Virus record (IMG/VR): IMGVR_UViG_3300030390_000875
Span: 1-21,234 of that record
Origin: a virus
Length of the DNA: 21,234 bases
Reading direction: 5' to 3' (one strand)
In this document: positions 3,832 to 17,993 of the stretch, piece by piece
Numbering within the stretch: the stretch's first letter is position 1
How the letters are laid out: every line of letters starts with the position of its first letter
Notes under the pieces: model-generated
Database searches by the model: none
Told to the model about the DNA's origin: nothing
The model's input: only the letters and a program-made list of their open reading frames with translations
Program-made: the position numbers and the translations under genes

Positions 3832-3943
3832 TAATTCAATATTAATGAATAGCAATACAAGTATAGCAGGTGATATAGTAATTGTTTGGTGTTCTACTGA
3901 TACATATAATTTAAAAACAGAATGCAATGGCAATACTATTTAA
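3821..3943 (+). CDS. Possible 40-aa ORF bridging two genes
   Basis: A reading frame of 40 residues starts with MKNNNSILMNSN and contains a hydrophobic stretch (GDIVIVWC). It overlaps the preceding stop by 11 nt and the following start by 17 nt. It exactly fills what would otherwise be the only 95-nt gap in this tightly packed run, which is the main reason to list it. The start context is A-rich. There is no recognisable family. The hydrophobic stretch is too short for a membrane helix. It may equally be a spacer leader for the nuclease gene. Confidence 0.4.
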   Translation: MKNNNSILMNSNTSIAGDIVIVWCSTDTYNLKTECNGNTI

Positions 3944-4739
3944 AGAAGAAGGTCATGTTTATGAGAGTATAGATAATGACAAAATATCATGGGTAAGTGT
4001 TACTGGTTTAGTAGGTAAGTTTAAACCTAAGTTTGATAGAGATGGTCAAGCTGCAAAATCTGCAAAGAATAAAAGATCTAAATGGTATGGTATGACTGCA
4101 AAAGAAATTATAGCAGCATGGGATGGTGAAACAGAAAGAGCAATAAAGTTAGGAAACTTTTATCATAATCAAAGAGAGAATGATATGCTTGATTTTAAAA
4201 CTATACAAAGAGAAGGAACAGAGGTGCCAATTATAAAACCATTAGTTAATGAAGAAGGTGTAAAGATATCACCTAATCAGAAATTAGAAGAAGGTGTATA
4301 TCCTGAACATTTAGTCTTTCTTAAATCAGTAGGTATATGTGGACAAGCAGATGTTGTAGAAATAGTAAATGGACATATAAACATTACTGATTACAAAACT
4401 AATAAAGAAATAAAAGATAAAGGATTTACAAACTGGGAAGGTATTACTAACAAAATGTTTAGGCCTGTCAATCATTTAGATGATTGTAATCTTAACCATT
4501 ATAATTTACAACTCAGTATTTATGCGTATATTATTAAGAAGCATAACCCTAAATTAAAGATAGGTAAATTAGTAATACAACATGTAAAGTTTAAACAAGT
4601 AGGAGAAGATTCTAACGGATATCCAATTAATGAACATGTTAATGGTGAGCCAGTTTTGGAAAATATAAAAATATATGAACTACCATATTTAAGAGATGAA
4701 GTAAACTCACTAATGATGTGGATAAAAGATAACCAATGA
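3927..4739 (+). CDS. PD-(D/E)XK nuclease, RecB/Cas4-type exonuclease
   Basis: This 270-aa protein has the ordered motifs of the RecB-like PD-(D/E)XK superfamily: LGNFYHNQREND (motif with H80), E127 region, GICGQADVVE with D142, ITDYKTNKEI with the D155-x-K157 pair, and LQLSIYAY with the Q205-x3-Y209 motif that places DNA. These residues form a metal-dependent DNA-cleaving site, usually a 5'-3' exonuclease for recombination, host DNA degradation or DNA processing. Length fits stand-alone phage exonucleases. No partner annealing protein is present in the window. It overlaps the next gene by ATGA. crAss-like phages encode a PD-(D/E)XK gene, consistent with context. Function class is confident; biological role is not. 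Confidence 0.85.
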   Translation: MAILFKEEGHVYESIDNDKISWVSVTGLVGKFKPKFDRDGQAAKSAKNKRSKWYGMTAKEIIAAWDGETERAIKLGNFYHNQRENDMLDFKTIQREGTEVPIIKPLVNEEGVKISPNQKLEEGVYPEHLVFLKSVGICGQADVVEIVNGHINITDYKTNKEIKDKGFTNWEGITNKMFRPVNHLDDCNLNHYNLQLSIYAYIIKKHNPKLKIGKLVIQHVKFKQVGEDSNGYPINEHVNGEPVLENIKIYELPYLRDEVNSLMMWIKDNQ

Positions 4740-10795: not shown

Positions 10796-10816
10796 TTTCT
10801 TATATTATATATATAG
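10796..10816 (+). promoter_or_regulatory. Candidate phage promoter, copy 2
   Basis: TTTCT-TATATTAT-ATA-TATAG fits the same 21-nt pattern as copies at 44 and 17973. It ends 30 nt before the scaffold-like gene. A TTTG at 10780-10783 lies 17 nt upstream of TATATTAT, the usual -33 position for Bacteroidota. The 118-nt gap (10729-10846) has no terminator I can see, so read-through from the portal gene is expected to add to this promoter. Confidence 0.6.
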
Positions 10817-12215: not shown

Positions 12216-13835
12216 ATGGCAACTCCAGTTTTAAATAATGGGATTTTCCTACGTGATACAAGCTACAAGGCTAGTTCACATGTTGATTCTTATCACCTAA
12301 CACAGATGCTTGGCAATGCTGAGCCTATGGATATGGGACCAATTGATTTATGGGCAATGACTCAGAAGGTAGAGATGCCTTTATATCAAATGGCATCATT
12401 CGGTGGAAAGAATACAATCATGGTGGACAACGCTAGAGGTGAGTACAAGTGGCAAACTCCTATTGCACAAGATCTTCCTTATATAGTGGCAGACATTGAA
12501 CCAGCTAATGCTAGCAAAGGTATTGATGGAACTCTATTTAAGATCAAGATTAACAAAAGAACTTTTGGACATGGTGACATTATTACTTATGATAAGTATA
12601 ATGGACTAGAACTTTACATCACTGCGGACGATATTGTCCCAGCAGGTGACGGTTTTGTATACACTGTTCAATTAGTAAATAATAACAATGCCGCTACTCT
12701 TGATGCAAAATACTTAGCTAAAGGTACAAAGTACTTTAGAAAAGGTTCTGCAAGAGGTGAGTACGGTGAAAGATTCTCTGACATTGAAACAGGTTCAGGT
12801 TTCCGTGAATTCTACAATTTTGTAGGAGGAGCAGAAGCACATGTACACTATTCAATTTCTTCAAGAGCAGACTTAATGATCAAAGGCGGATTAAACGCTG
12901 ATGGTACAGTGCCTGTTACTGAGATTTGGAGAAACTTTAATACAGATCCAAACAATCCATCAGTACCTAGTATTGAAGGACTTGTAGCTAATATGGGTAA
13001 AGCAGGAGCTAGAGAAGCATTTGAAAATGGAACTCTTACAAGAACTTTCATTACAAATATGGAAGCAGCTCACTTATCTAAAATTGCAACGGATATTGAA
13101 ACTTACCTAATGTGGGGTAAAGGTGGTAGAATTAAGCAAGATGGACCGGATGATATTAGATTATCTGTAGGTTTATGGTCACAGTTAGATAACTCTTTCA
13201 AGAGAGTATATAACAAGTCATCATTTACTCTTGACATGTTTAAGTCTGAACTTTATAACTTCTATCAAGGTAAAGTTGAATTTAAAGGGCCAGACCCACA
13301 AAGATCACTTGTTGTACAAACAGGTATTGGAGGTATGCAACTTATCAACAAAGCAATTGCTGATGAAGTATACGGTTCTGGTTTAGTTCAAAATGCAACA
13401 GATATTGGAGCTGTACAAGGTTCTGGTATGGATTTAGATTATGGTTTTGCTTACACAAGCTTTACTATTCCTTTCTTAGCTAACGTTAAGTTTGTATTAA
13501 ATCCAGCATTTGATAACTTAAATACTAATGACATTGAGAATCCATTAATTGATGGAAGACCTCTAAGTTCATTTAGCTTTATTATCTTTGATGTAACAGA
13601 TGAAGGAAATGACAACATTCACTTGTTGAAACTTTCTTGGGATAATCAACTTAAGTGGTTCTACCAAAATGGTACTATGGACTACATGGGAAGAACTCAA
13701 GGTTTTGCTTCTACTGGACAATTCAATGGATATAGAGTTTATATGACTCAGACCATGCCAGCTATTTGGGTTAAGGATCCAACTAAAGTTCTAAAAATAG
13801 TAATGAGAAACCCTGTTACAGGAGGATCATTCTAA
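12216..13835 (+). CDS. Major capsid protein (candidate)
   Basis: This 539-aa protein is called coat protein because it follows a portal and a scaffold-like gene, has coat-like size, and is followed at once by a strong terminator, typical of the most abundant virion protein. It is rich in beta segments and aromatic residues, with recurrent strands such as GEYKWQTPIAQDLPYIV and FSFIIFDVTDEG, and a helical segment near NMEAAHLSKIATDIETYL that could be the HK97 spine. I do not recognise a family signature by eye. More C-ending codons (AAC, TAC, TTC) than its neighbours fits high expression. The leader is AATCAAATTT before ATG. Confidence in the gene is high, in the function moderate to high. Confidence 0.8.
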   Translation: MATPVLNNGIFLRDTSYKASSHVDSYHLTQMLGNAEPMDMGPIDLWAMTQKVEMPLYQMASFGGKNTIMVDNARGEYKWQTPIAQDLPYIVADIEPANASKGIDGTLFKIKINKRTFGHGDIITYDKYNGLELYITADDIVPAGDGFVYTVQLVNNNNAATLDAKYLAKGTKYFRKGSARGEYGERFSDIETGSGFREFYNFVGGAEAHVHYSISSRADLMIKGGLNADGTVPVTEIWRNFNTDPNNPSVPSIEGLVANMGKAGAREAFENGTLTRTFITNMEAAHLSKIATDIETYLMWGKGGRIKQDGPDDIRLSVGLWSQLDNSFKRVYNKSSFTLDMFKSELYNFYQGKVEFKGPDPQRSLVVQTGIGGMQLINKAIADEVYGSGLVQNATDIGAVQGSGMDLDYGFAYTSFTIPFLANVKFVLNPAFDNLNTNDIENPLIDGRPLSSFSFIIFDVTDEGNDNIHLLKLSWDNQLKWFYQNGTMDYMGRTQGFASTGQFNGYRVYMTQTMPAIWVKDPTKVLKIVMRNPVTGGSF

Positions 13836-13855
13836 GAACATTAATCAAGTAAATT

Positions 13856-13890
13856 GGGAGGTGGTATATGCCTCCTCCCTTTTTATTTTA
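13856..13890 (+). terminator. Intrinsic terminator after the capsid gene
   Basis: GGGAGGTGGT (13856-13865) pairs with GCCTCCTCCC (13870-13879) over ten positions with one T-T mismatch and one wobble pair, closing a four-base ATAT loop. It is followed by TTTTTATTTTA. This is the most GC-rich stem in the window and lies 20 nt after the capsid stop. It should end or attenuate the scaffold-capsid transcript. Confidence 0.88.
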
Positions 13891-13910
13891 ACCCTTAAAA
13901 AATAGAAATT

Positions 13911-14108
13911 ATGGCACTAGATATTAAATTAGCAAATAAAGCATATGAGTTTTCAAACTCAAGTGTTTCAAAAATACTTGCTTCAAAAGCATTTGGTAAA
14001 GATATCATCTTAAAAAATTACGCAACTGACACTGCAGCAAAAGCTGCTGGGTTAGGTAAGGGTGACATATATCATAACGCAGGTGTATTAAGAGTTGTAT
14101 TAACATAA
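13911..14108 (+). CDS. 65-aa capsid-region accessory protein
   Basis: This short protein follows the capsid terminator by 20 nt. The first half is Ala/Ser/Lys-rich and helical (KLANKAYEFSNSSVSKIL). The end ATDTAAKAAGLGKGDIYHN and GVLRVVL has the look of a small beta-hairpin motif (A-A-x-A-G-L-x-x-G-D-x-Y ... G-x-L-x-V-V) that I recall at the C-termini of various phage virion proteins. Capsid decoration or auxiliary protein would fit size and position; there is no direct evidence. Its expression behind a terminator implies read-through or an undetected promoter. The AAATT before ATG matches the local non-Shine-Dalgarno leader. Confidence 0.7.
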   Translation: MALDIKLANKAYEFSNSSVSKILASKAFGKDIILKNYATDTAAKAAGLGKGDIYHNAGVLRVVLT

Positions 14109-14110
14109 TA

Positions 14111-14188
14111 GTCAAACAACTTGAGCAAGAGTTAAATCTTGCTTAAGAAACTTAATAATAAGACAGTACAAATTTTTGTACGTTTGAC
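14111..14188 (+). ncRNA. Multibranched structured RNA element, cloverleaf-like
   Basis: A 7-bp perfect outer stem GTCAAAC (14111-14117) with GTTTGAC (14182-14188) encloses an 11-bp hairpin CTTGAGCAAGA/TCTTGCTTAAG (14120-14147, loop GTTAAA, one wobble), a short 4-bp hairpin CTTA/TAAG (14151-14162) and a 6-bp hairpin GTACAA/TTGTAC (14166-14181). The last arm abuts the outer stem without a linker, and two bases separate the outer stem from the first arm, as in tRNA. It lacks a T-loop consensus and an anticodon arm, so I do not call a tRNA. No T-run follows, so it is not a plain terminator. It begins 3 nt after the stop of the 65-aa gene. Base pairing is read by eye. Confidence 0.5.
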
Positions 14189-14191
14189 ATG

Positions 14192-14220
14192 TAAAACCAA
14201 TTATTAATTTTTAAAACCAA
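14192..14220 (+). repeat. Direct repeat TAAAACCAA ahead of a start codon
   Basis: TAAAACCAA occurs at 14192-14200 and again at 14212-14220, 20 nt apart; the second copy ends 5 nt before the ATG at 14226. The core AAACCAA also sits 7 nt before the ATGs at 10847 (10833-10839) and 18622 (18608-18614). In a genome without Shine-Dalgarno sequences this repeated leader word may aid initiation or mark a transcript start. Confidence 0.5.
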
Positions 14221-14225
14221 ATATT

Positions 14226-15245
14226 ATGAATGATTACACTATTGTAGAAAAGTATCAACAAGAAAAAAAACAAAGTTCTGTAGCGGTACGTCCTTTCTTT
14301 AACCCTGGCAAAGAAAATATGGGACTAGAAAGTTATGGACTATCCTTACATGATGGAGTTTACCATGAAGAATCATTAGCTTGTTTAGAAATGAACGGAG
14401 TTAAAAGGTATGTAACAGGATTAAATGAATTTGCTCCTGAAGTAAAAAGATTAAGCCCAACAGATAAAAAAGCTAAGATTGCTGAGATAAGAAGAGTAGT
14501 CTCTGAATTAGAAGCTGAATTAGCTGCTAATGTAGTTGATCCAGAAGATAAAGATTTTTGGAATAATTTAACTATAATGAAGCCAGACAATTCTAAGTTT
14601 TGGGATAAGATATCTTTAAGATGTGGTAATGACCCTGTTTTTTTAGATCCAGATGTTGATCCATATGATAAAATAAAATTACATGCTATAAATGCTGGTG
14701 GTTTTTCTATAGTAGCTAAGTCATTAAAAGAAGCTAAGGCATCTCACAATGCTCCTAAATTTTATTTAGATACATTAGAAGAAACATTAAGTACAAGAAC
14801 AGAATTAAGTAAACTTAAAAATAAAGCTGTAGTAGAGTTAGAAACTTTATATAATAGCAATACTTCTAAGCTTATGTATGTTGCTAAAATATGTGACGTA
14901 AATAGTTCACAATATGTTAAGAGTACTCCTAATGATGTGATGTATGAAAATATGGATGACTATATAAATGGTGATGGCTCAGAGTCTAACAAGAAGAGAG
15001 CAGCTAAAAACTTTATTAATGTAGCAAAGTTAAGTATGGAGGAAGTAAAAATAAGAGCATTAGTAAAAGATGCATTGTTTTATAGATTCATAACAACTAA
15101 AGCTGGAGGTTGGATTGAACCTACTGATAGTGGTGTTAGAATGGGTAAATCTCCTGACGAAGTTAAACTATTTTTAATGGATCCAAAAAATGATGAGGTT
15201 CTTGAATCAACACTTGCAAAAGTAGAACCTTACTGGAACTCATAA
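14226..15245 (+). CDS. Unknown virion-region protein, 339 aa
   Basis: This protein lies between the capsid accessory and connector genes, so a head or neck role is likely. Residues 1-65 are beta-rich (SSVAVRPFF, YGLSLHDGVYH, KRYVTGLNEF). Residues 75-100 form a Lys/Glu helix (KKAKIAEIRRVVSELEAELAAN). The middle is helical (LYNSNTSKLMYVAKIC), with a low-complexity DGSESNKKRAAKN loop, and the end YRFITTKAGGWIEPTDSGVRMG is Gly-rich before a Pro/Asp helix. There is no recognisable family. The tidy order of segments and the repeated leader suggest good expression. Alternatives are an internal virion protein or a maturation factor. Start is set by the A-rich AAACCAA leader. Confidence 0.75.
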   Translation: MNDYTIVEKYQQEKKQSSVAVRPFFNPGKENMGLESYGLSLHDGVYHEESLACLEMNGVKRYVTGLNEFAPEVKRLSPTDKKAKIAEIRRVVSELEAELAANVVDPEDKDFWNNLTIMKPDNSKFWDKISLRCGNDPVFLDPDVDPYDKIKLHAINAGGFSIVAKSLKEAKASHNAPKFYLDTLEETLSTRTELSKLKNKAVVELETLYNSNTSKLMYVAKICDVNSSQYVKSTPNDVMYENMDDYINGDGSESNKKRAAKNFINVAKLSMEEVKIRALVKDALFYRFITTKAGGWIEPTDSGVRMGKSPDEVKLFLMDPKNDEVLESTLAKVEPYWNS

Positions 15246-15976: not shown

Positions 15977-15994
15977 TTTTGTATATTATTATAG
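15977..15994 (+). promoter_or_regulatory. Candidate phage promoter, copy 3 (variant)
   Basis: TTTTG-TATATTAT-TATAG matches the recurrent promoter pattern, with the three-base spacer before TATAG missing. It lies 13 nt after the connector gene and 88 nt before the next ATG, leaving a long leader. No terminator precedes it, so it probably adds to read-through transcription. Confidence 0.5.
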
Positions 15995-16082
15995 TAACAA
16001 TGAAGTTACGAACAGAGTAAACTGTTAAAATCACTTTTATAACCAGTGAGGGTAATGGTTCCTCACACAAAAATAATTAATT
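15995..16082 (+). promoter_or_regulatory. Structured 5' leader of the 599-aa virion gene
   Basis: This is the longest leader in the window. It follows a 5-bp hairpin at its upstream edge (GTAAC 15994-15998 with GTTAC 16005-16009) and holds a second one (AACAG/CTGTT, 16011-16026). It also has two competing folds: GTGAGG (16046-16051) with CCTCAC (16061-16066), or AACCA (16041-16045) with TGGTT (16056-16060). TCACT/AGTGA (16031-16035, 16045-16049) can also pair. The leader ends AATAATTAATT before the ATG. Crossing pairs make a switch-like or pseudoknotted structure possible, but with zero-length loops a true pseudoknot may be sterically strained. Confidence 0.45.
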
Positions 16083-17972: not shown

Positions 17973-17993
17973 TTTTGTATATTATTAGTATAG
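17973..17993 (+). promoter_or_regulatory. Candidate phage promoter, copy 4
   Basis: TTTTG-TATATTAT-TAG-TATAG fits the 21-nt pattern exactly. It comes right after an intrinsic terminator and 19 nt before the ATG at 18013. This placement is the best support for the motif being a promoter. Confidence 0.65.

Follow-up and report, generated by a model that had tools for sequence, protein, structure and literature searches.

The mRNAs of phage T7 contain RNase III sites as structured intercistronic elements, structured leaders, such as autoregulatory leaders and riboswitches, bind a regulatory protein or a ligand, and the packaging RNA of phi29 is a multi-helix RNA of a short-tailed phage. To our knowledge, few structured RNAs from the late operons of tailed phages have been described as families. 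The element described here is encoded between the major capsid gene and a conserved 339-aa gene of a virus whose 21.2-kb record (IMGVR_UViG_3300030390_000875, positions 1 to 21,234) we refer to as the window. We rate it as a new family, though of a kind that is known in general, and, with a probability of about one half, as a cis-acting intercistronic RNA element of the late virion-protein mRNA, which sets how much of the message downstream of it survives or is translated.

The terminase, portal and capsid genes of the window match head-and-packaging PHROGs. Among annotated phages, the capsid protein has only distant relatives, all with less than 30% identity: Leptolyngbya phage Lbo-JY46, the crAss-like csAssE-Sib and Cellulophaga phages. 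We call the window phage crAss-like, from a largely marine group, where the labels marine and freshwater are our interpretation of the relatives and not the output of a tool. The 339-aa protein has no PHROG and no solved relative by sequence or fold; its predicted fold matches S0A085 of Cellulophaga phage phi14:2 (E 2.1e-9), and all its matches by fold are uncharacterised proteins of phi14:2 and crAss-like viruses. A PDB match to RecA (E 0.3) covered a segment of ~65 residues and was discounted.

Table 1. Features around the RNA element, in window coordinates.
Feature	Position	Strand	Evidence or remark
Promoter-like motif TTCTTATATTATATATATAG of the unit containing the element	10797..10816	+	TATATTAT core in 54/61 leaders of 437-aa gene
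Major capsid protein gene	12216..13835	+	phrog_11589, E 1.1e-30
Intrinsic terminator behind capsid gene	13856..13886	+	terminator-like in 81/86 element-bearing relatives
65-aa ORF in exchangeable small-gene slot	13911..14108	+	stop codon 2 nt 5' of P1
Structured RNA element (P1-P2-P3-P4 here; family core P1-P2-P4)	14111..14188	+	fold z −7.4; covariance model 103.5 bits; covariation
P1 (7 bp)	14111-14117/14182-14188	+	fold; covariation; own versus cross partner z −8.3
P2 hairpin (11 bp)	14120..14147: 14120-14130/14137-14147	+	fold; covariation; own versus cross z −14.3
P3 small hairpin (4 bp), optional in family	14151..14162: 14151-14154/14159-14162	+	own versus cross z −4.8; weak energy
P4 hairpin (6 bp)	14166..14181: 14166-14171/14176-14181	+	fold; covariation; own versus cross z −8.4
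Conserved AUUAUUAA, complementary to junction UUAAUAAU (14152-14159)	14200..14207	+	candidate pseudoknot or P3 alternative
AAAACCAA leader motif before 339-aa start	14213..14220	+	general in these phages, not element-specific
339-aa conserved gene, 3' of element	14226..15245	+	uncharacterised crAss-like phage protein

Fold, covariation and selected strand

An earlier note on this DNA had drawn a 78-nt fold, and refolding reproduced its helices and coordinates exactly, with two bases behind the 5' strand of P1 and none ahead of its 3' strand. The minimum free energy is −26.8 kcal/mol, against −9.7 ± 2.3 for shuffled sequences, none of 200 being as low. With its flanks (14109-14225), the element scores z −6.6 on the + strand and −3.0 on the − strand.

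Using the neighbouring 339-aa gene as anchor, we obtained 80 viral loci. A MAFFT alignment misplaced P1 in many rows and was replaced by a smaller alignment and a covariance model, which was built on 15 sequences; these match by construction, the rest do not. The model found exactly one copy, always sense to the operon, in the window and in each of the 80 gene-anchored loci, and it matched 72 of 80 loci retrieved by sequence motif and 25 of 84 further loci at E<1e-6. Fifteen element-bearing contigs of 77-118 kb have one strong copy apiece. The fold z of the + strand lies between −2.9 and −7.2 in 85 distinct relatives (median −4.8).

In an alignment of the 85 distinct sequences, 91.3% of the cells are paired and both sides change in 19 of 28 pairs. 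Measured against shuffles that ignore relatedness, 196 cells are doubly changed (53 ± 5 in shuffles), with a covariation score of 0.259 (shuffled 0.097 ± 0.005, reached in 0 of 500; slid 0.007-0.032). Since this alignment was fitted to the structure, we used as a second test the duplex energy of each strand with its own partner versus those of other sequences, again with shuffles that ignore relatedness; the resulting z-scores are negative for all four helices (Table 1), with +2.4 for the negative control. The pair 14111/14188, for example, is GC, CG, GU, UA, AU or UG among the relatives, and in P2 both sides change in 8 of 11 pairs. Related phages thus show strong covariation in P1, P2 and P4 but weak covariation in P3, and together with the fold energy this bears out the structure of the earlier note.

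Among the solid pairs there are 37 G.U against three A.C. P4 is closed by a UACG loop in 9 of 85 sequences and P3 by a GUAA loop in 24, while in one relative (L082) the tip of P2 reads GGGCAACC and folds into a GCAA loop. From this bias and these UNCG- and GNRA-type loops it follows that selection acts on the + strand RNA, and in 71 of 85 relatives this strand also folds with the better z. Compensatory change, the mark of a cis-acting mRNA element, is found on the mRNA strand.

We give almost no credence to the view that the region has no structured RNA but inverted repeats arisen by chance, a terminator or a promoter. The region is AT-rich and the UUUGAC of P1 resembles a Bacteroidota −33 box, but covariation largely refutes this view and the shuffles also speak against it. 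A sigma-70 scan was at chance level with no site at the element, the spacing from UUUG to a putative −7 box varies, and one relative (L050) has no UUUG. The absence of a T-run, correctly reported before, is accompanied by the absence of any + strand terminator-like site at the element, the one found lying upstream, past the capsid gene. Promoter and intrinsic terminator were therefore rejected as identities of the element.

Identity and junction architecture

The outline of the fold had been likened to tRNA geometry, a resemblance that did not survive closer inspection. ARAGORN called no tRNA at the element, and the tRNA model RF00005, which detected six tRNAs in three of four related phages, found none there. 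The element shows no 7-nt T loop on a 5-bp T arm, no 5-bp anticodon arm and no CCA end; instead, P2 has 11 bp, P4 has 6 bp and mostly a 4-nt loop at the position of the T arm, P3 has 3-5 bp or is absent, and AUGUAAAACC follows P1. A tRNA mimic or RNase P/Z substrate, cut at 14111, would draw on the stacking of P1 and P4 like acceptor and T arms, with ~13 stacked positions that are linker-free in the window; with a loop of 4 nt where the T loop would be, P1 not followed directly by CCA and P3 dispensable, we consider it very unlikely. Searches of Rfam 15 gave no match at the gathering score and, at E<10, nothing beyond hits of chance level (E 5-9), in agreement with the earlier statement that no known class fits. 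We thus rule out tRNA, tmRNA and the Rfam families. A limited open-access search of papers on crAss-like phages found no description of such an element.

At the level of the family, the core is a three-helix junction of P1, P2 and P4, with a conserved stretch, UAGAAAUAUUAAUAAUAA, 3' of P2. P3 is weak; folding predicts it for the window and for many relatives, whereas it is missing from the predictions for L029, L037, L082, L194 and L198, among others. Because P3 goes unpredicted in many relatives, the cloverleaf proposed at first is a better description of the lineage to which the window belongs than of the whole family.

The junction segment UUAAUAAU is complementary, over ~7 nt or more in nearly all members, to AUUAUUAA in the leader of the 339-aa gene. 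AUUAUUAA occurs in 64 of 74 element-bearing leaders of this gene, versus 0 of 22 leaders of element-lacking relatives, and it remains beside the element in a relative (L051) where an inserted 68-aa gene precedes the 339-aa gene. A putative pseudoknot or alternative pairing between the two segments, which would compete with P3, is plausible. These observations, and the weak covariation of P3, would also suit a translational or conformational switch, in which UUAAUAAU pairs either with its P3 partner or with AUUAUUAA, the choice being made by a ligand, a protein or the passage of ribosomes. Yet AU-rich sequence pairs easily, AUUAUUAA also precedes the capsid and 437-aa genes of the same clade (29/63 and 24/57 leaders, ~45%), and co-variation between junction and AUUAUUAA was not significant, own pairs being not clearly better than cross pairs (duplex energy z −1.3, against shuffles that ignore relatedness). 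We regard such a switch as possible, though doubtful.

Position in the late operon

The P1 end of the element lies ~37 nt 5' of the start of the 338/339-aa gene. This downstream gene is constant, whereas the upstream gene is variable or absent, for which reason we rejected the element as a 3'-end element of the 65-aa gene. In relatives, the slot before the element is occupied by a gene of 64-70, 73-87, 52 or 221-233 aa or is empty, and the distance from the stop codon of the small gene to P1 is mostly −1 to +9 nt. Two families found in this slot (13836-14110 in the window) differ in their N-termini and share a C-terminal motif, AAAxAAGLxKGDLYHTxGxLKIV. On the other side, a 68-aa ORF lies between element and 339-aa gene in L051 (3736-3998) and L098.

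That small genes of unrelated families end so close to P1 could also mark a boundary at the DNA level, a site at which small genes recombine or insert and where the fold would work in single-stranded DNA, as in attC, or the sequence as mere homology. In one relative, L061, the element (3878-3983) indeed looks recombinant, its first half being L064-like and its second half L053-like. Against this stand the strand-specific G.U bias and the RNA tetraloops, the single copy with no paired second site seen, and the persistence of the element in three relatives with an empty slot (L012, L194, L253), which together render a DNA boundary quite improbable.

The motif TTNGTATATTATNNNTATAG has seven sites, where 1.7 are expected, and we infer that it is a candidate promoter. 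Sites precede gene groups at 45-64, 10797-10816, 15978-15997 and 17974-17993 of the window. Of 65 leaders of the 599-aa gene, 58 have the TATATTAT core; of 86 capsid-to-339 intervals with the element, none has it. If TTNGTATATTATNNNTATAG is a promoter, the element lies mid-operon and heads the segment behind the terminator. ACCAA occurs near the start codon in 73 of 74 leaders of the 339-aa gene with the element and 22 of 22 without, and in 57 of 57 leaders of the 437-aa gene; it is absent from the capsid leaders of the window and its relatives. A few bases 5' of starts, it may possibly serve as a translation-initiation signal.

The same surroundings bear on the idea of a small non-coding RNA in its own right, released from the late mRNA by cleavage and acting in trans or in the virion, like a packaging RNA. 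One copy per genome, a compact fold with P1 closed and conservation amid virion genes would be in keeping with it. The element has neither its own promoter motif nor a terminator at its 3' end, the adjoining leader sequence is conserved too, and sister phages with the same virion genes are missing it, all of which makes a separate RNA unlikely.

A second conserved structured RNA is located at 15994-16068 of the window, between the 235-aa and 599-aa ORFs. It comprises a hairpin GUAAC..GUUAC, a hairpin with the nearly invariant CAGAGUAAACUG and then AACCAGUGnGGGUAAUGGUCCUCAC; its last hairpin, GUGAGG/CCUCAC, overlaps an alternative ACCA/UGGU pairing, which is ACUA/UAGU in L037 and L204. There are 26 distinct versions and no Rfam match, and from its sequence this RNA could be a leader switch or pseudoknot. 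In eight relatives (L005, L031, L033, L036, L043, L044, L051, L070), its place 5' of the 599-aa gene is taken by an additional ORF and a short leader with a GUAC..GUAC hairpin.

Proposed function, origin and comparison with known systems

A fold that is selected on the mRNA strand, at a nearly fixed site and indifferent to the small gene before it, points to a cis-acting element of the late mRNA. The evidence that counts for this comprises the compensatory changes in P1, P2 and P4, the single sense copy, the terminator upstream and the motif-free interval between capsid gene and element. In the proposed course of events, a transcription unit would begin at the promoter-like site near 10800, cross the 437-aa and capsid genes and reach the terminator; readthrough RNA would extend across the exchangeable small gene and the element and on through the genes for the 339-aa and 235-aa proteins. 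The element would then head the post-terminator segment and act in cis on its survival or translation, be it as a stable border against nucleases, as a processing boundary or as a protein-bound leader. Stability, processing or translation of that segment may each be what it governs. Of the roles listed in the earlier note, the tRNA mimic finds no support, whereas a processing site, a stability element or a regulatory RNA may each apply, and the surroundings speak for a cis element in a polycistronic late mRNA. Counting against the cis-acting element, a promoter of another type inside the small gene is possible, the intervening 68-aa gene of two relatives argues against strict control of the 339-aa gene, and element-lacking relatives retain the same gene order, so that the element is not essential to that order.

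More specifically, but only tentatively, the element may be a pseudoknotted or bistable junction RNA that gates one virion segment by blocking nucleases or sensing a protein or ligand, being one of two unrelated RNAs that bracket the 339-235 gene pair.

If the element does act in cis, ratios of virion proteins would be set at the RNA level, beside a hot spot of small-gene exchange that leaves the element undisturbed. In a tree of the 339-aa protein (103 rows), the distribution of the element requires one change, as do 66% of bootstrap trees (5-95% range 1-2); it probably arose once, in the marine clade, its freshwater sisters being without it. These freshwater relatives have the capsid gene, the terminator, a short ACCAA leader and a 339-type gene, most of them without small gene and element; in L189, L209, L213 and L215 the sequence is different and the element absent, and Leptolyngbya phage Lbo-JY46 has none between capsid and next gene. 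The element is backed by covariation over a wide marine clade, and its sharp phylogenetic origin makes a comparison of sister phages with and without it possible.

Compared with tRNA, the element of the window phage has a cloverleaf outline, a 7-bp outer stem and a 2-nt first linker, but differs in arm lengths, loops and consensus bases. With the packaging RNA of phi29 it shares being a multi-helix RNA encoded by a short-tailed phage, while fold and locus differ and it is without its own promoter motif. The three- or four-way junction ahead of a start codon and the complementary leader segment recall regulatory leaders; it differs from them in having no Rfam match, a ribosome-binding region left free by the nested fold and, in one case, an inserted gene. 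In its action the element would be closest to structured leaders or to the intercistronic elements of phage mRNAs. As in those of T7, a folded RNA lies between genes of one polycistronic message, in which adjacent genes can be set apart by processing or stability; unlike the RNase III sites, it is no single long irregular hairpin but a multi-helix junction with a conserved single-stranded core and a longest helix of 11 bp.
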